Origin: an uncultured Erysipelotrichaceae bacterium
GTDB lineage: Bacteria; Bacillota_I; Bacilli_A; Erysipelotrichales; Erysipelotrichaceae
Direction: 5' to 3'
Assembly: GCA_903789495.1 (NCBI GenBank)
Contig: CAIFEQ010000015.1
Coordinates: 1 to 44,276, forward strand
Length of the DNA stretch: 44,276 nt
Below, one piece after another: positions 25,880-35,740 of the stretch (positions within the stretch are counted from its first letter, which is position 1; the number at the start of each line of letters is the position of its first letter). A program made the translations under genes and the position numbers. Below the pieces are notes generated by a model that was not told the origin of the DNA, ran no database searches, and saw nothing but the letters and a program-made list of their open reading frames with translations.

Positions 25880-26090
25880 CCTTATTCCCATACAATCCTG
25901 TCTGTCACAGACCTGAGTCTTTATGATGAATTCTGTTGTCTCTATGCGATCCTGATCATCTATATGAGGATTCATGGATCTATTGTTGTCAAAATGCTGC
26001 TGAGGGATTCCTCCATACCTTGACTGTCTAGCTGATGCATGGATCGATCTGATGTTCTGTATGTTTTGGTATCTCAAGCTTATAAGCCAT
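25880..26090 (-). pseudogene. RelE/ParE-type toxin, inactivated
   Basis: An ATG at 26090 overlaps the antitoxin stop by 11 bases, and the frame reads MAYKLEIPKHTEHQIDPCIS, the N-terminus of RelE/ParE toxins, before a TAG stop at codon 21. In the same frame TVKVWRNPSAAF follows, then TGA and TAG. A neighbouring frame carries LTTIDP and, further on, MGIRSYEK, which resembles the C-terminal toxin core (xKGxRxYEK). At least three stops plus frame changes are needed to read the full-length toxin, so it is dead. Confidence 0.85.
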
Positions 26091-26340
26091 ATTTCTTACT
26101 CACATCAGACAATGCTTCTCTGGCTCCTCGGGTTTTTCCCTCTCTGATGTCGTCTTCAGACATTTCCAGATCACGATAGAGCTGTTCCTTCTGAAACATT
26201 TTTTCGAAGGTTTCCATGCTCATCAGCACCATATCGCCATACCCATTCTTTGTCACAAAAACTGGTTCAGTGCTCTTATGGCACATTTCCGAAACCTTTG
26301 CTGTATCCTTTAGATCCTTGATCGGAATAATCTGCGGCAT
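26080..26340 (-). CDS. Phd/YefM-type antitoxin
   Basis: An 86-residue antitoxin. The N-terminus MPQIIPIKDLKDTAKVSEMC is the Phd/YefM DNA-binding fold, continuing to EPVFVTKNGYGDMVLMSMET, the family hallmark. The acidic C-terminal helix (YRDLEMSEDDIREGK) would bind the toxin. AAAAGGAG is seven bases before the ATG at 26340; the longer upstream reading is not coding. Its toxin partner immediately downstream has stop codons throughout, so this antitoxin is an orphan. Such orphans may persist as regulators or protect against an incoming homologous toxin (inference). Confidence 0.9.
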   Translation of the reverse strand: MPQIIPIKDLKDTAKVSEMCHKSTEPVFVTKNGYGDMVLMSMETFEKMFQKEQLYRDLEMSEDDIREGKTRGAREALSDVSKKYGL

Positions 26341-26572
26341 CTTATTATCTCCTTTTTGTGGGTTTATTATGTCTTTTTTATGCCATTTAATGCATATTGT
26401 TTCAATCCTCAGCATCAGAATCTGAATCAACAGCTGTGCCCGTCTGTTTCTGCAGAAACGGGTCCGGTATCCTTCCCGATGAATCCGAATCAGAAGAAAA
26501 CGAAGATTCCTTCTGCAGGTGATCTCCGGTCCGCAGGAATGATTCCCCTGTCTGCTGCTCACTGAAGTCTGG

Positions 26573-26601
26573 AAAAAAAGCAGGTGGACTCCCCTACCTG
26601 C
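26573..26601 (-). terminator. Terminator of the six-gene sirtuin operon
   Basis: Stem GCAGGT/ACCTGC (26580-26601) with a ten-base loop, followed on the minus strand by seven T (26579-26573). It lies 33 bases after the Rrf2 stop codon, the last gene of the unit. Confidence 0.85.
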
Positions 26602-26633: not shown

Positions 26634-27071
26634 TCAGGTGTTCTGCTGAGCCCGTTCAATGGTCTGATAAACTTCCTGTATGTGATGAGAGGCAAGGTCC
26701 TTCTCAAAATCGGACTGTATTTCCATCAGAGACTGATCCAGTGCCTTATGAATGTTTTTCCCCACCGGACAGGACGGGTTGGGATTTTCATGAAAGCGGA
26801 ACAGGTTTTCATGACTGTTTGTCTCTACTGCCTGATAAACATCCAGATAGGATATTTCAGACAGCGGCCGCTTCAGGGTGATTCCGCCCGGCCCGCGCCT
26901 GACCTCAATGATCCCTGCTTCCTGCAGCTGCAGCATGATGTTTCTCACGATGACCGGATTGGACCCGATGCTGTCTGCCAGAAACCGGCTGGTGATTTTC
27001 TGCTCTCCTTCAAAATACTTTGCTGCGACAAGGAGATGTATCGCAATCGTGAATTTCGTGGAAATCTGCAT
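26634..27071 (-). CDS. Rrf2 family regulator, last gene of the sirtuin operon
   Basis: A 145-residue Rrf2 protein of the YwnA/Cys-poor type. The N-terminus is QISTKFTIAIHLLVAAKYF, the recognition helix region SNPVIVRNIMLQLQEAGI, and the wing VRRGPGGITLKRP. One cysteine remains (PSCPVG, about residue 100), so Fe-S binding by the IscR triad is not possible; a single-thiol switch is. It follows the ABC ATPase by 15 bases and is the sixth gene of the unit. The repeated AGATGTAA motifs and inverted repeats at the promoter (31761-31809) are plausible operators, giving feedback control (inference). Confidence 0.88.
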   Translation of the reverse strand: MQISTKFTIAIHLLVAAKYFEGEQKITSRFLADSIGSNPVIVRNIMLQLQEAGIIEVRRGPGGITLKRPLSEISYLDVYQAVETNSHENLFRFHENPNPSCPVGKNIHKALDQSLMEIQSDFEKDLASHHIQEVYQTIERAQQNT

Positions 27072-27086
27072 GTCTAACCTCCTGCC

Positions 27087-27914
27087 TCACCTGGCGGCAT
27101 CGCCTTCCGGCAGCCGCAGGCCGCACGCGGCACCGCTGAACTCACAGCCCCCGACCCGATCTTCACTGAGGAAACAGGTATGTCGTTCCCGCCGGACCAG
27201 CTTTTCCACAAATTCATTGGCGGGATGGCGGAGAATATGGACCGGTGTATCGTACTGCTGAATCTCACCGTGGTCCATGATGAACACCTTCGTGGCCAGT
27301 TTCAGCGCTTCCTGAATGTCATGCGTCACGAAGAGGACCGTGATATGCGTCTCCCGGTGAATCCGCATGATCTCATCCTGCAGGGAAGAACGGGTAATCT
27401 CATCGACGGCACCGAACGGTTCGTCCATCAGCAGGATCTGCGGCGAAGCGGCCAGGGCCCGGGCAATGCCGACACGCTGCTGCTGACCGCCGGAAAGTTC
27501 ATTGGGATAGCGTTCTTTCAACGCCGGATCCAGACCGACAATCTTCATCCATTTATCCACGGCCTGGGCGGTCCGGTTCCTGTCCTTTTTATGCAGCAGG
27601 TTCGGGACATAGGCAATGTTCTGTTCCACCGTCATATTGGGAAACAGGACACTGCCCTGGATCGCATAGCCGATCGAACGGCGCAGCTGAACCGGATCGC
27701 GTTCCCTGATATTGGTACCTTCCACAAAGATATCGCCTGCCGTCGGTTCGATCAGCGCGTTCACCATCTTCAGCGTGGTGGTCTTGCCGCAGCCGGAGGA
27801 ACCGATCATCGTGACAAAGTCGCCTTTCTCAACCGAGAAACTCAGATCAGGAATGATGACGCTGTCACCATAGGCTTTTTTCACATGCCGGAATTCAATC
27901 ATTTTTTCACTCAT
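27087..27914 (-). CDS. ABC transporter ATPase, OpuCA/EgtUA type
   Basis: A 275-residue ATPase of the osmoprotectant (OpuA/OpuC/ProV-like) group. Walker A is GSSGCGKTT, the Q-loop is in YAIQGSVLFPNMT, the signature is ELSGGQQQRVGIA, and Walker B is ILLMDEPFGAVDEIT. It lacks the CBS domains of longer OpuCA proteins and ends in a cysteine-bearing tail (HTCFLSEDRVGGCEF) that I do not recognise from the family. The ATG at 27914 follows AGAGGTG. It begins 11 bases after the fused permease/binding protein gene, which it energises. Substrate: betaine, choline, carnitine or ergothioneine are all possible. Confidence 0.9.
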   Translation of the reverse strand: MSEKMIEFRHVKKAYGDSVIIPDLSFSVEKGDFVTMIGSSGCGKTTTLKMVNALIEPTAGDIFVEGTNIRERDPVQLRRSIGYAIQGSVLFPNMTVEQNIAYVPNLLHKKDRNRTAQAVDKWMKIVGLDPALKERYPNELSGGQQQRVGIARALAASPQILLMDEPFGAVDEITRSSLQDEIMRIHRETHITVLFVTHDIQEALKLATKVFIMDHGEIQQYDTPVHILRHPANEFVEKLVRRERHTCFLSEDRVGGCEFSGAACGLRLPEGDAAR

Positions 27915-27925
27915 TGCGGACACCT

Positions 27926-29464
27926 CTACTGGATCAGGCCGCGTTCGGCCAGGAATGCTTCTGCCACATCCCGCGGTTCCTTTCCTTCTACTTCCACTTC
28001 GTAATTCATTTCGACCATATCTTCATTCTGAATCTGACCGGTCAGCTGATCAAATACCTCCTGCAGTTCCGGATACTGTTCCAGCACTTCCGTCCGGACC
28101 ACATTGCCGCAGAGATAGGACGGGAAGAAATCCAGATCATCTCTCAGCACCACGGCATCCGCTGTGGACAGCTGACCGTCGGTGGTAAAGACCACCATGA
28201 CATCGATCTGCTTCTCTGCCAGGGCCTGATATTTCAGACCGATATCCAGATCCATCGTCCTGCCGAACCGGAAGCCGTATGTATTACATAACGCATCATA
28301 GCCGTCTTCCCGTTCATAGAAATCATACTCCGCGCCGAAGGTCAGGCTGGAAGCGATGGCCCTGAGATCAGAATAAGTCTCGATACCGTACTGATCGGCA
28401 ATCTCCTTGCGCACAGCCAGTCCGTACGTATTTTCAAACCCGTACAGGCACGTCCAGGTCATGCCCATCTCTTCATACGCAGACTGCAGTTCCTCAAACT
28501 GATCTTCCGTATAGACACTGTCCTTTTTCAATACGGCATTCCATGCGGTACCCGTATATTCCGGATAGAGATCGAACTCACCGCTTTCCATGGCCGGTTC
28601 GATGTTGGAGGTACCGCCCCCGACGCCCTGGGTCAGTTCCACATTGAGATCGGTTTCCTGTTCAATCAGAATATCCAGCATCTCGCCGAGCACATACTGT
28701 TCGGTCATCGGCTTGGTGGCAATATGGATGGTCTTTTCACTCTGTCTGCCGGAAACAGCTGCGGCAAGGATCAGGCAGCCGGCCAGGATCAGGGCCGTGA
28801 TTCCCATCACTTTGTTCTGGCGCTTCGCCTGTTTCGAATGCTTCTGCATTCTCTTTTCCACAATGCTCAGAATCAGATCGGCAATCAGGGCCAGCGCTGC
28901 CGTTAACAAGCTGCCGGCAACCGTCATGGCCGTATTGTTGGTGGTAATGCCCCGGTAAATCGCAACGCCCAGGCCGCCGGCGCCTATGAAGGAGGCAATG
29001 CCGGCCAGGGCAATCGTCATGGTCACCATGTTCCGGATCCCGGACATGATCACCGGCATGGCCAGCGGCAGCTTGACCTTGAAAAGAATCTGCTTTCGCG
29101 TGCTTCCCATGCCTTTTGCCGCTTCCACAATCGCCGGATCCACATTGGTCAGACCGGTATGCACAGACCTGACCATCGGCAGCAGCGCATATATCGTCAG
29201 TGCAATGACCGCCGTGGTGTTGCCGATCCCGGAAAAAGGAATCAGGAAGCCCAGCATGGAGATGGACGGGATCGTATAGATGAAGTTGATCACGCCCAGC
29301 GTCCATTTTGCCGATTTCTGATACTCGCTGATCAGAATGCCAATGACACTTCCGGCTGCGATTGCAATCGCAATGGCAAGGAAGGAAATCTCCAGGTGCT
29401 GGATCAGCAGATTTTCAAAGAAATCCCAGCGCGAGATCAGAAGCTCGAATATTTCCTGAATCAT
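27926..29464 (-). CDS. Fused ABC permease and substrate-binding protein (OpuFB/EgtUBC type)
   Basis: A 512-residue fusion. Residues about 1-210 form a five-to-six helix OpuB/C permease with the EAA loop VDPAIVEAAKGMGSTRKQIL. A further helix (about 220-245) anchors the C-terminal binding domain (about 250-512, IHIATKPMTEQYVLGEML to FLAERGLIQ). The binding domain has VGGGTSNIEPAMESGEFDLY and PEYTGTAWN, the family's ligand-cage region. This architecture is found in quaternary-amine importers and in the ergothioneine importer EgtUBC. The ATG at 29464 lies four bases after the preceding stop codon. A low-molecular-weight thiol or betaine import role fits the redox context (inference). Confidence 0.9.
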   Translation of the reverse strand: MIQEIFELLISRWDFFENLLIQHLEISFLAIAIAIAAGSVIGILISEYQKSAKWTLGVINFIYTIPSISMLGFLIPFSGIGNTTAVIALTIYALLPMVRSVHTGLTNVDPAIVEAAKGMGSTRKQILFKVKLPLAMPVIMSGIRNMVTMTIALAGIASFIGAGGLGVAIYRGITTNNTAMTVAGSLLTAALALIADLILSIVEKRMQKHSKQAKRQNKVMGITALILAGCLILAAAVSGRQSEKTIHIATKPMTEQYVLGEMLDILIEQETDLNVELTQGVGGGTSNIEPAMESGEFDLYPEYTGTAWNAVLKKDSVYTEDQFEELQSAYEEMGMTWTCLYGFENTYGLAVRKEIADQYGIETYSDLRAIASSLTFGAEYDFYEREDGYDALCNTYGFRFGRTMDLDIGLKYQALAEKQIDVMVVFTTDGQLSTADAVVLRDDLDFFPSYLCGNVVRTEVLEQYPELQEVFDQLTGQIQNEDMVEMNYEVEVEGKEPRDVAEAFLAERGLIQ

Positions 29465-29468
29465 CGAT

Positions 29469-30080
29469 TCATTCCCCGCGTCTGACGATGGCCTGAACCG
29501 GGCAGTTTTCAAAGCACAGGCCGCAGTGCAGGCAGTTCTCCTGCCGGATCACAAACGGCTTGCCGGCGTCAATGCTCTGCTGCGGGCAGTTTCTTCTGCA
29601 CTTGCCGCAGCCGATGCACCGCTCCGTGATCCGGAAGCCTTTTTCAGGTAAACTGCTTTCCCCGAAGCTGAAGCTTTGCCGGTAAATCGGATTCGTACTG
29701 AGATCGAAGAACTCAAGGTTTCCGGATTCGATGGCAAACGGATCGAGAATATATCTGGATTCCCCCGGATACACATCATTCATCGAAGGATTTTCCTCGA
29801 AGATGCGGTCGATCCACTTCTTCTGTTCCGTCAGTTTCTTCACGGCCCCGGTCAGGCGGATCATCTGCCAGTTCCTGTTCAGGCCGCTGATGGCCACCTG
29901 CGGATGGACCGTCAGCTGACGGTAGAAATCCTTCCCCCGTCCGGTGCAGAAGACCAGCCGGTTTTCTTCCACGATCATGACGTCAATGATCCGGCTGTGC
30001 GGCATGCCGTTTTCATCTACCGTGGCAAAGGAAACATCCTTGATCTCTCTGCGCATCTGTAAGCAATCCTGCTCATTCAT
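29469..30080 (-). CDS. Flavin split-barrel protein fused to a 2[4Fe-4S] ferredoxin (copy 2)
   Basis: A 203-residue fusion. Residues 1-135 match the pyridoxamine-phosphate-oxidase-like split barrel that binds FMN (VSFATVDENGMPHSRIIDVM, VFCTGRGKDFYRQL). Residues about 150-203 carry two [4Fe-4S] motifs, CIGCGKCRRNCP and CLHCGLCFENCP. Such fusions should pass electrons between a flavin and Fe-S clusters in the cytoplasm. It is a paralogue of the protein at 31054. It lies between the sirtuin gene (19 bases before) and the transporter (4 bases after), within one transcript. The electron partner is unknown. Confidence 0.9.
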   Translation of the reverse strand: MNEQDCLQMRREIKDVSFATVDENGMPHSRIIDVMIVEENRLVFCTGRGKDFYRQLTVHPQVAISGLNRNWQMIRLTGAVKKLTEQKKWIDRIFEENPSMNDVYPGESRYILDPFAIESGNLEFFDLSTNPIYRQSFSFGESSLPEKGFRITERCIGCGKCRRNCPQQSIDAGKPFVIRQENCLHCGLCFENCPVQAIVRRGE

Positions 30081-30099
30081 ATCCTTTCTTCCTCCTGTC

Positions 30100-31050
30100 T
30101 CAGTTCTGCTGATTCTTTTCTTTCAGGTCATGCAGAACCTCTGCAATATCCTGATTGATGCATAACGAACGTGACTGCAGCGCCTGCGGGGCTGCGGCTT
30201 CTCCCCTGTTCAGACAGGCATAGAAGGCTTTGGGATTCTTACCCACGGCCTGCCAGAAGGGAAACTTGATGATGACGGGCGTATTCATGCCAACCCCCAG
30301 TTCCAGATAAAGGACGTGCTGCTGTTCATGACACCGGACAAAATTCTCATACCGGTTCTGGGCCGCATACCAGCCGTCATCCTCCACGAAGGTATCATCA
30401 CAGCGCAGATTCACCGTCATCTCACTGCCATCGTCCGGACATTTCGGAATCAGTTCCGTCGGGACCATCATTTTCAGTCTGCCATCTGCCGGCACCTGGA
30501 AGATGCCCTTCTCATCACAGACAAATCCCTGGGCTTCCATCATCTTGCAGATGATCTCTTCATTGTCATAGGTCTTTCTGATTTTCGGATTGACACTCTG
30601 CAGCAGACCGTAATCCCCCTGGGTATAGAACAGTCTTTCTTTGGCAAACCCGTTCAGCTGAAACTGATGATCCACATTGGTGGTCAGGACAAAATAATCC
30701 TTGCCGTTTACCAGGGAAAGCAGAGTCTCGTACACATCAGAAGGTGCTTTCACATAACGGTTGTAATAGATGTGGCGGCTCCACCAGGCCCAGTATGTTT
30801 CCCGGTCCGGAAACGGATAGAACCCGCCGGAGTACATGTCCCGGATGCCGTATTTCCGGGCAAAATCAGCGAAGTATTTCTGAAACCTTTCTCCGGAATA
30901 GGTCAGTCCGGCAGCGGTGGAAAGACCGGAACCGGCACCGATCAGAATCGCATCTGCCTGCTCAATCTGCCTGCCAAGGATTTCGATCTGCTGCTCATAG
31001 CGATCCGTAATTCCGGAGGACATTCTGCCAAAAAGATCTGTTAACGTCAT
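30100..31050 (-). CDS. Class M sirtuin (SirTM-like), probable protein ADP-ribosyltransferase
   Basis: A 316-residue Sir2-family protein matching class M sirtuins. The NAD loop is IGAGSGLSTAAGLTYSGERF (about 37-56). The active-site segments are LTTNVDHQF with Asn125, YTQGDYG with Gln144 where deacylases have His, and NLRCDD with Arg216. Asn, Gln and Arg are the residues that characterise SirTM, which ADP-ribosylates a lipoylated carrier in Staphylococcus and Streptococcus. The region after VPTELIPKC reads CPDDG, without the paired Cys (CPxC) I expect in relatives. No macrodomain, GcvH-L or LplA2 gene is in view, unlike the known clusters; two flavin/ferredoxin genes flank it instead. Its target is unknown. 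Confidence 0.88.
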   Translation of the reverse strand: MTLTDLFGRMSSGITDRYEQQIEILGRQIEQADAILIGAGSGLSTAAGLTYSGERFQKYFADFARKYGIRDMYSGGFYPFPDRETYWAWWSRHIYYNRYVKAPSDVYETLLSLVNGKDYFVLTTNVDHQFQLNGFAKERLFYTQGDYGLLQSVNPKIRKTYDNEEIICKMMEAQGFVCDEKGIFQVPADGRLKMMVPTELIPKCPDDGSEMTVNLRCDDTFVEDDGWYAAQNRYENFVRCHEQQHVLYLELGVGMNTPVIIKFPFWQAVGKNPKAFYACLNRGEAAAPQALQSRSLCINQDIAEVLHDLKEKNQQN

Positions 31051-31053
31051 CTT

Positions 31054-31713
31054 TTACCTCCTGACGACTGCCCTGACCGGGCAGTCTGTATAGCAGTTGC
31101 CGCAGTGCAGACAGTGCCGCTGATCAATCCGGAAAGGAACCGCATCATGCCGGATACAGTTCTGCGGGCATACCGTCAGACACGTTCCGCATCCCGTACA
31201 GGTTTCGGTAATGCGGTACGGTGCACGGGTCCCGTCTTCCGCGTGCTGTTCCGCATCGCCTATGGCAAACGATTCTCTTGTGATGGGGTTTGTGGAAAGG
31301 TCGAAAAATTCTCCTCTTCCTTCCGTCATCTTGAAAACGGCAAGTGCCTCCCGTGATTTTCCGCTCGGATAGATCTCGGCCATATAGGGATTTGCCGCAA
31401 AGATCTCTGCCAGCTTTTCGGTACCGATGCAGGCAACGGAGCCGCGGATCGAAACAGCCCTGATATGCAGCGAGGCCTCTGTCCGGTCCAGACCTTCACC
31501 GCCTGTCATCCCGGTCAAAGCGATGTACTTCCGCTGCATCAGCTGTTTATAGAAGTCTTTCCCTTTTGCGGTCAGAAAATAGAATGTTTTCTCATCCGAC
31601 AGCATAATGTCTATGACTCTGGTAACCGGCTTATTCTCTTCATCCGTCGTGGCACAGACTGCAGAATGCATCTCATTTTCCAGCATCTTCAGATATCGAT
31701 TTTCAGTGTCCAT
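31054..31713 (-). CDS. Flavin split-barrel protein fused to a 2[4Fe-4S] ferredoxin (copy 1)
   Basis: A 219-residue paralogue of the protein at 29469. The flavin barrel is at residues 1-150 (AVCATTDEENKPVTRVIDIM, TAKGKDFYKQL, GEFFDLSTNPITRESF). The two ferredoxin motifs, CTGCGTCLTVCP and CLHCGNCYTDCP, lie at about 165-215. It is the first gene of the sirtuin operon, with AGGAG seven bases before the ATG and a strong promoter. It ends three bases before the sirtuin start, so translation is coupled. Two different copies bracketing one sirtuin suggest they deliver or sense reducing power for the same process (inference). Confidence 0.9.
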   Translation of the reverse strand: MDTENRYLKMLENEMHSAVCATTDEENKPVTRVIDIMLSDEKTFYFLTAKGKDFYKQLMQRKYIALTGMTGGEGLDRTEASLHIRAVSIRGSVACIGTEKLAEIFAANPYMAEIYPSGKSREALAVFKMTEGRGEFFDLSTNPITRESFAIGDAEQHAEDGTRAPYRITETCTGCGTCLTVCPQNCIRHDAVPFRIDQRHCLHCGNCYTDCPVRAVVRR

Positions 31714-31760
31714 GTGATCTCCTGACCTTTCCGGAAATAAAGGGATCTTTATCCCGTATT

Positions 31761-31809
31761 TGTAATATATTTTGTTACATCTAAGATGTCAACATTTTTA
31801 TTACATCTT
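31761..31809 (-). promoter_or_regulatory. Promoter and candidate operators of the sirtuin operon
   Basis: On the minus strand a perfect TTGACA (31792-31787) and TATATT (31769-31764) are 17 bases apart. Around them lie an inverted repeat TGTAA-N9-TTACA (31761-31779) covering the -10, a second one ACATCT-A-AGATGT (31777-31789) in the spacer, and a second AGATGTAA copy upstream (31801-31808). This density of repeats suggests tight control, with the operon's own Rrf2 protein the first candidate. Confidence 0.75.
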
Positions 31810-34759: not shown

Positions 34760-35740
34760 TTATTCCCATTCGATTGTCGCGGTCGGTTTCGGTGTGAAAT
34801 CATACAGCACCCGGTTGACGCCGGGAACCTCATGAGTGATCCGGTCTGTGATATGTTCCATCAGCTCAAACGGGATATTCTCGACAGTGGCGGTGACGGC
34901 GTCTTTCGTATTGATGGCGCGGATGATGACCGGCCATTCAAAGCAGCGCTTGCCATCCCGGATGCCGGTAGACTTGAAGTCGGGGATGATGGTGAAATAC
35001 TGCCACACCTTGCCCTGCAGACCGTTCCTGGCAAATTCTTCCCGGAGGATCGCATCCGATTCCCGGACTGCTTCCAGGCGATCCCGCGTAATGGCGCCCA
35101 GGCAGCGCACACCGAGGCCTGGTCCGGGGAAAGGCTGACGGTAGACCATGCTGTCGGGCAGGCCGAGCGCCTTGCCCACAACACGGACTTCATCCTTATA
35201 GAGAAATTTCAGCGGTTCCACGAGTTCAAAGTGCAGATCTGCCGGCAGACCGCCGACGTTGTGATGGGCTTTGATGCCGGCCTTACTTTCCAGGATGTCG
35301 GGGTAAATGGTGCCCTGCGCCAGGAAATGAATGCCTTCCAGCTTCCGGGCCTCTTCTGCAAACACATTGATGAATTCGGCGCCGATGATATGCCGTTTCT
35401 GTTCCGGATCCGTGACGCCGGCCAGCTTATCGAGGAAGCGGTCCGACGCATCTACATAGATCAGATTCGCGGACATCTGGTGGCGGAATACCTGGATGAC
35501 CTGCTCAGACTCCCCCTTGCGCAGCAGGCCGTGATTGACATGCACGCAGACAAGCTGCTGGCCGATCGCCTTGATCAGCAGCGCCGCGACAACTGAAGAG
35601 TCGACACCGCCTGACAAAGCCAGAAGAACCTTTTTATCGCCCACCTGCTCTTTCAGGGCGGCTAACTGTTCCTCAATGAATTTTTGTGCCTGTTCGGGTG
35701 TTTCGATACGCTGCATGGTTGCTGGACGATTCTCCGTCAT
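34760..35740 (-). CDS. guaA: GMP synthase, ATP pyrophosphatase part without glutaminase
   Basis: A 326-residue protein covering only the second half of bacterial GuaA. The PP-loop is ALSGGVDSSVVAALL (about 42-56), followed by VHVNHGLLRKGE and the dimer domain with RQPFPGPGLGVRCLG. It ends at the usual TIEWE tail. Normal GuaA is about 510-525 residues with a class I glutamine amidotransferase domain first. That domain is absent here, and AGGAGG six bases before the ATG shows the short start is genuine. It makes GMP from XMP, ATP and an ammonia source. Ammonia could come free or from a separate GuaAa-type subunit encoded elsewhere, as in archaea (inference). Confidence 0.9.
   Translation of the reverse strand: MTENRPATMQRIETPEQAQKFIEEQLAALKEQVGDKKVLLALSGGVDSSVVAALLIKAIGQQLVCVHVNHGLLRKGESEQVIQVFRHQMSANLIYVDASDRFLDKLAGVTDPEQKRHIIGAEFINVFAEEARKLEGIHFLAQGTIYPDILESKAGIKAHHNVGGLPADLHFELVEPLKFLYKDEVRVVGKALGLPDSMVYRQPFPGPGLGVRCLGAITRDRLEAVRESDAILREEFARNGLQGKVWQYFTIIPDFKSTGIRDGKRCFEWPVIIRAINTKDAVTATVENIPFELMEHITDRITHEVPGVNRVLYDFTPKPTATIEWE

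Follow-up and report, generated by a model that had tools for sequence, protein, structure and literature searches.

The window analysed here, 44,276 nucleotides of contig CAIFEQ010000015.1 from an uncultured gut bacterium of the Erysipelotrichaceae (GCA_903789495.1), carries on its minus strand a six-gene operon in which a SirTM-like sirtuin lies between two flavin/ferredoxin proteins (FF1 and FF2), followed by an EgtU-like importer and an Rrf2 regulator. We propose that this operon serves as the principal transcription unit in a small electrophile- and thiol-stress regulon, and give this proposal as a whole, including its steps on FF1 and on the imported ligand, a probability of roughly 55%. 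It builds on the observed gene content, the active-site residues, an operator and promoter shared with an eraser gene in trans, and the recurrence of the gene modules in other genomes.

According to this proposal, the last gene of the operon encodes an Rrf2 repressor whose predicted binding site, TGTAA-N9-TTACA, lies over the promoter and which, by analogy with SifR, would release the DNA when its Cys101 reacts with quinones or oxidants. Derepression would raise the sirtuin, a zinc-type macrodomain protein (Zn-Macro) in trans, FF1 and FF2, and the importer together. As expected of class M, the sirtuin would put ADP-ribose on a target, from which the Zn-Macro encoded on contig 3 would take it off. 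The importer would take up an antioxidant, either a thione or a quaternary amine, with ergothioneine the most probable. FF1 is our first candidate for the target or client of the ADP-ribose switch, and FF2 would be the partner of the imported compound.

The sirtuin and its operon

The sirtuin (30100..31050, minus strand, 316 amino acids) had no Pfam or NCBIfam match at a threshold of 0.001. A phmmer search against solved sequences at the same threshold returned two matches, 5a3a (SpySirTM, 8.2e-54) and 8rsn (a macro-SirTM fusion), and the closest solved fold is that of SirTM, the mark of class M, and not that of the deacylase sirtuins. The catalytic residues N125, Q144 and R216, with QG replacing HG, match N118, Q137 and R192 of SpySirTM, and N, Q and R are invariant in all 129 aligned SirTM rows. 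By analogy, the protein is probably a class M ADP-ribosyltransferase. SpySirTM has four cysteines that we take to be zinc ligands; the corresponding places read S, K, C and D in the window sirtuin, three of the four being replaced. Among the 129 rows, Ser occupies the first of these places in 104 and Asp the last in 101. All four cysteines are kept in 20 rows. Because they are not conserved in the window sirtuin, we call it a member of a variant sub-type, which is, to judge from the alignment, a large one with an altered or lost zinc site.

The remaining genes, all on the minus strand, are FF1 (31054..31713, 219 amino acids), FF2 (29469..30080, 203 amino acids), an EgtU-like permease fused to its substrate-binding domain (27926..29464, 512 amino acids from the chosen ATG), an EgtV-like ABC ATPase with a GTG start (27087..27923, 278 amino acids; Pfam and NCBIfam matches) and the Rrf2 regulator (26634..27071, 145 amino acids). 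All six frames are open without an internal stop and are separated by gaps of 3, 19, 4, 2 and 15 bases. The layout described in an earlier sequence-only reading of this DNA thus holds, with spacings of 2-19 rather than 3-19 bases. Pfam searches found PNPOx_N and Fer4 in both FF1 and FF2, OpuAC fused to BPD_transp_1, ABC_tran and Rrf2; two paralogous flavin split-barrel/2[4Fe-4S] fusions do therefore bracket the sirtuin, as that reading had it.

The promoter, TTGACA-17-TATATT (31764..31792, minus strand), matches 11 of 12 consensus bases and lies where it had been predicted. It ranked first among seven promoter-like sites in a 10-kb scan, which by itself proves little, since seven sites do not exceed the mean of 8.3 in shuffled sequences. 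A sequence scan also found a terminator-like hairpin with a T-run at 26578..26599 (minus strand), within the previously proposed 26573-26601. Co-transcription of the six genes is likely from this arrangement.

FF1 and FF2 each consist of a PNPOx-type domain and two Fer4 motifs, whose cluster cysteines are invariant in all 29 aligned rows. The structure model of FF1 (predicted local distance difference test score, pLDDT, 91.7) has 2hhz and 2ig6, PNPOx- and NimA-type flavoproteins, as its top matches, and the modelled fold would fit an electron-transfer role. FF1-type and FF2-type proteins fall on opposite sides of a supported branch, the FF2 type being tied to EgtU-like importers. Contig 2 encodes a third flavin/ferredoxin protein (G000:C2:6057-6680; L202 6033-6692), a paralogue with 52% identity to FF1, beside a flavodoxin-like frame. 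A scan of 14 kb there (L202) found no operator with one mismatch or fewer.

A putative eraser in trans and the search for GcvH

As the sequence-only reading had noted, a macrodomain protein, GcvH-L and LplA2 are missing from the operon: Pfam searches found none among the six genes, LplA elsewhere in the assembly not having been searched for. The assembly comprises 2,115,150 bases in 60 contigs and is 94.8% complete. A Pfam Macro search of it found one gene, on contig 3 (G000:C3:105473-106270, coordinates of the longer query). Among solved structures it matches the Zn-Macros 8rsi, 5kiv and 8rsl best, and its zinc-loop motif GCYQPLHNCEDN aligns with GCFIPMHNCIDN of 8rsi. The promoter of this gene is also TTGACA-17-TATATT and equals the operon promoter at 30 of 38 bases. 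An exact operator (C3:106301-106319) lies 30 bases before the start.

A system without a macrodomain eraser, as suggested at first, is rejected on account of this Zn-Macro, whose gene shares the operator and has nearly the same promoter. Nor, because the trans Zn-Macro shares both elements, are electron carriers needed to reverse the modification, a role that had been considered for the two fusion proteins. GCV_H, in turn, had no match in the assembly, within its 94.8% completeness, while 13 of 14 control genomes were positive; with the same caveat, GcvH is rejected as the target here. The suggested check for these genes elsewhere in the genome thus turned up the macrodomain and no GcvH.

A SifR-type regulator and its operators

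Comparisons with published systems, here and below, draw on excerpts of the cited papers. The nearest solved proteins of the Rrf2 regulator are 1ylf and YwnA (1xd7). Its single cysteine, Cys101 in a CPVG motif, aligns with the cysteine of YwnA (Cys97, the counterpart of Cys102 in SifR). In the aligned column 49 of 50 rows have C, the exception being a truncated copy on contig 3 (a narrow motif gave 23 of 50). TGTAA-N9-TTACA is described as the operator of Streptococcus pneumoniae SifR and Staphylococcus aureus HypR, and SifR as sensing quinones via its conserved cysteine (PMC9218516). By analogy, the regulator encoded here may sense quinones via Cys101.

The assembly holds two exact copies of this operator, the one before the Zn-Macro gene and one over the -10 box of the operon promoter (31761..31779, minus strand). 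An upstream operator-like site with one mismatch (31787..31805, minus strand) overlaps the -35 box at a distance of 26 bases from the exact site. The same 26-base pairing precedes the SirTM gene of locus L077 of Mobilibacterium and the SnoaL2-FF2-EgtUV-Rrf2 genes of locus L159 (genome G047).

For a wider view we used a sample of SirTM loci that leans to close relatives: 80 stretches, the best among more than 592, plus 45 drawn from the genomes of a co-occurrence comparison. Seven near-duplicates with identical sirtuin residues were dropped, reducing 125 loci to 118; some loci are cut by contig ends. The 118 loci contain 86 exact operators, 69 of them at the start of a module gene, defined as from 60 bases inside to 150 bases before the start. 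Four control patterns had 1, 0, 2 and 3 sites, none of them at module genes. Rrf2, SirTM, Macro or flavin/ferredoxin genes follow 45 of the 69 placed operators, and SnoaL2 or NmrA-like genes the other 24. An operator at a module start was present in 38 of 45 loci with Rrf2 compared to 6 of 73 loci without it.

In the one-contig genome G041 (3.2 Mb), all five exact operators precede module-type genes, namely SirTM-Macro, FF2-EgtUV, FF1-Macro-SirTM (159 bases before the FF1 frame), Rrf2-FF1-Macro-SirTM and an NmrA-like gene. All four exact operators of Mobilibacterium likewise precede SirTM, Rrf2 and, as a pair, an NmrA-like gene. A further 45 are held by G042, G047, G048, G056 and G340, and the surroundings were examined for four of these. 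The NmrA-like NAD(P)-binding gene also recurs outside SirTM operons with one or two exact operators in front (L206 1614-2243 in Mobilibacterium, and others). Our guess is that it could correspond to YwnB in the SifR regulon.

Gene neighbourhoods in other genomes

Neighbourhood counts exclude the short loci L001-L031, which are mostly covered by longer stretches. Within 3.5 kb and on the same strand, the 118 SirTM loci have Macro in 86 cases, Rrf2 in 42, a flavin/ferredoxin gene in 35, SnoaL2 in 14 and an NmrA-like gene in 6. Where at least 3.5 kb were available on both sides (69 loci, both strands), Macro was found in 55, Rrf2 in 28 and a flavin/ferredoxin gene in 23, 20 of which also had Macro. 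Over 60 genomes, 24 contained both a flavin/ferredoxin gene and SirTM, 2 only the former, 17 only the latter and 17 neither (p = 0.0006). The order Rrf2-FF1-Macro-SirTM recurs in relatives, and the tie of SirTM to redox genes that had been proposed from the window alone is thereby seen again. The search for the gene order itself gave a mixed outcome: none of the other examined loci has the exact six-gene order of the window, and relatives carry it as two separable modules. Whereas the window sirtuin gene is not adjacent to a Macro gene, in its nearest relative, L077, Macro is next but one to SirTM.

The second module joins FF2 to the importer. We examined 15 loci of the importer clade (13, together with G047 and the window), and in seven of them, those of the window, G041, G042, G047, G048, G056 and G340, FF2 lies directly upstream of EgtU-EgtV. 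An exact operator precedes this cluster in five of the seven, and Rrf2 is present in four (window, G042, G047, G048). Macro follows Rrf2 in two, directly in G042 and after an intervening frame in G047. SirTM belongs to the same gene run in the window and G056, lies about 5.5 kb upstream of FF2 in G047, and is known in six of the seven genomes, G340 having been outside that search. Two relatives carry SnoaL2-FF2-EgtU-EgtV-Rrf2 with the same operator in front. In five scanned loci out of the eight without FF2 (L185, L189, L191, L192, L195), no exact operator precedes EgtU. The intervening frame of G047 (L159 5279-6502) encodes 407 amino acids with an HNH-like motif, seen by eye, between Rrf2 and Macro; in its relative G042, the Rrf2 and Macro genes overlap directly.

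The permease/binding protein clade was found in 14 of 395 genomes of the class at 1e-110, the window genome included; at 1e-90, none of the 35 genomes of the same genus in the relatives sample has it. G300, a further genome of this genus, carries an importer copy (52%) without FF2. A search labelled phylum at 1e-160 returned 12 genomes, all of them already in the earlier sets, and no relatives were found in viral contigs. Because the clade is absent from the 35 same-genus genomes, horizontal transfer of the importer is suggested.

Weighing the proposal

Several observations weigh against the regulon. From the base composition of the window, about 1.6 exact operators are expected in the assembly, so it is the places of the two sites that are striking and not their number. 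Sites with one mismatch number 20 in the assembly versus 41 for the reversed control, and since they do not exceed it, only exact operators were used. Exact operators per genome also equal or fall below the reversed control in three of seven genomes (G041, G048 and G340). SnoaL2 and NmrA-like genes joined the list of module genes after the sites had been seen, and without them 45 of the 86 operators are placed. G056 and G340 have no exact operator before FF2-EgtUV. Most SirTM loci have no flavin/ferredoxin gene nearby (35 of 118 do), and within family f2 the co-occurrence with SirTM has p = 0.08, a very weak SirTM match in G053 being counted as present. Finally, the ligand determinants reported for SpEgtU, G244 and an F293/Y337 switch (PMC9732360), are unmatched in the importer, which has M, Y and F at the matching motifs (a motif reading, SpEgtUC not being aligned).

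Alternatively, the operon would be a shared switch and nothing more, a horizontally acquired SirTM-FF1 unit and an FF2-EgtUV-Rrf2 unit having come under one redox regulator, with the sirtuin acting on some protein other than the flavin proteins and the importer. We regard this as possible, though we do not prefer it. The six-gene order found only here, with the modules kept apart or reordered in relatives, would be expected on such an account, as would the absence of the importer clade from the 35 same-genus genomes and the many SirTM loci that have Rrf2 and Macro and no flavin/ferredoxin gene. It is less easily squared with the meeting of the two modules, or their sharing of operators, in several genomes, and with the presence of flavin/ferredoxin genes within 7 kb of SirTM in 41 of 125 loci, a frequency that among neighbour families only Macro and Rrf2 exceed. 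On the strength of this last count, and because no GcvH was found, FF1 is the protein on which we would most expect the ADP-ribose switch to act, as target or client. For this sub-type we offer FF1 as target as a hypothesis, since most SirTM loci lack the family and p is 0.08 within one family.

The binding domain of the importer has as its nearest solved relative 8dp6 (246 bits, 121 of 267 residues identical), ahead of the next entry at 180 bits and the EgtUC entry 9o5f at 160. We take 8dp6 to be the EgtU of Helicobacter pylori. The prediction of a betaine- or ergothioneine-type importer thus agrees with a nearest solved relative of the ergothioneine transporter type. In an alternative reading, the imported compound would be a quaternary amine, be it glycine betaine, choline or another, and FF2 would reduce it or be a general electron carrier, without any role for ergothioneine. 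The NCBIfam matches of the importer are of the betaine/choline type, all below cut-off, and the unmatched SpEgtU positions point the same way; by motif reading, the 8dp6 protein too has no match at G244 and F293/Y337. The lead of 8dp6 argues against a quaternary amine, and so do the two relatives with SnoaL2 before FF2-EgtUV, an arrangement like that of the pneumococcal egtU operon, which is reported to include a SnoaL2 gene and to be partly regulated by SifR (PMC9732360). H. pylori EgtUV imports ergothioneine according to a review (PMC12918743). We consider the quaternary-amine reading somewhat unlikely. Ergothioneine is our leading guess for the imported ligand, and it is a guess rather than a finding because the SpEgtU determinants are not matched.

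The regulon proposal can be carried further. FF1, and possibly FF2, would replace lipoylated GcvH-L as the protein that SirTM modifies, the Zn-Macro would reset the mark, and the switch would set how electrons flow to an imported thione, for instance ergothioneine, all within a quinone- and oxidant-sensing regulon. In this fully specified form we think it unlikely to be right in every part.

Descent and remnants on contig 3

The nearest rows of the window sirtuin (69% identity), of the contig 3 Macro (74%, SH-aLRT 100) and of the window Rrf2 (66%) are all in L077, where SirTM, Macro and Rrf2 lie within 7.5 kb. For the sirtuin this pairing rests on identity, because the smallest supported set that holds it comprises 56 rows. 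We read the three genes as probably one system that was later split in the window genome. Contig 3 also carries a truncated second SirTM (G000:C3:93772-94146; L002; L056 7230-8174), with 60% identity across 125 residues, and next to it a truncated Rrf2-like frame. Both remnants lie 11-12 kb from the Zn-Macro and seem to be an older copy that decayed; at this distance, the Macro may first have served the contig 3 SirTM. That the operon itself is decaying, its sirtuin having lost the zinc site and the linked eraser and no longer working, could be argued from the three replaced cysteines and these truncated copies, yet we hold this to be very improbable.

Two further features of the window lie outside the operon. 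Just downstream, 26080-26562 has a Pfam match to Phd/YefM-type antitoxins, and no long open toxin frame follows it. A GMP synthase at 34760-35740 covers only model positions 191-512 and so has no N-terminal glutaminase part, with no amidotransferase frame evident just upstream.

Relation to known systems

The closest parallel is the extended SirTM/Zn-Macro operon of S. aureus and Streptococcus pyogenes, with which the present system shares a SirTM with catalytic N, Q and R, a Zn-Macro in the genome and flavin oxidoreductases nearby, these being OYE and LLM in the extended operon and FF1 and FF2 here (PMC4518038, PMC11490716). It differs in that GcvH-L and LplA2 are missing from the operon and GCV_H from the matches in the assembly, that the Zn-Macro is in trans, that Rrf2 and an importer are included, and that the zinc-type cysteines are altered. 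Minimal Macro/SirTM operons likewise combine writer and eraser without lipoyl genes (PMC4518038, PMC11490716), but relatives here add FF1 and Rrf2, and the Macro of the window genome is unlinked. With SifR/YwnA the regulator has in common a monothiol Rrf2 with its Cys in CPVG, the operator TGTAA-N9-TTACA and an NmrA-like gene in relatives (PMC9218516), whereas the operators described here suggest that it would control a SirTM/Zn-Macro pair. EgtU/EgtUV of S. pneumoniae and H. pylori show the same fusion of permease and binding domain with an ATPase (PMC9732360, PMC12918743), and the pneumococcal egtU operon the SnoaL2 neighbour and the link to SifR (PMC9732360); unlike these, the importer here stands in one operon with SirTM, FF1, FF2 and Rrf2, besides the difference in SpEgtU determinants. 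FF1 resembles NimA/NimC and PNPOx-type flavin split-barrel proteins in its N-terminal fold; a C-terminal 2[4Fe-4S] ferredoxin domain sets FF1 and FF2 apart from them.

The S. aureus sirTM operon and HypR, as an altered regulator, are both mentioned in PMC12710355, unlinked in the excerpt. Among the open-access titles and abstract openings listed in our searches, none links SirTM/Zn-Macro to SifR-type control or EgtU-type import, most subscription papers lying outside these searches. The parts are known and, as far as the open-access papers searched show, the wiring is new, a variant of the SirTM/Zn-Macro system.

GcvH-L is described as the sole protein known to be ADP-ribosylated by SirTM, with other SirTM/Zn-Macro targets unknown (PMC11490716). 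The locus offers a small set of candidate targets, FF1 and FF2, in a genome in which no GcvH was found, and its regulator and operator predict when the SirTM system is on. If SirTM does act on FF1, a target would be supplied for a SirTM system outside the lipoyl operon. If the proposal is true, gut anaerobes would link protein ADP-ribosylation with the SifR circuit as well as with import of the EgtU type.

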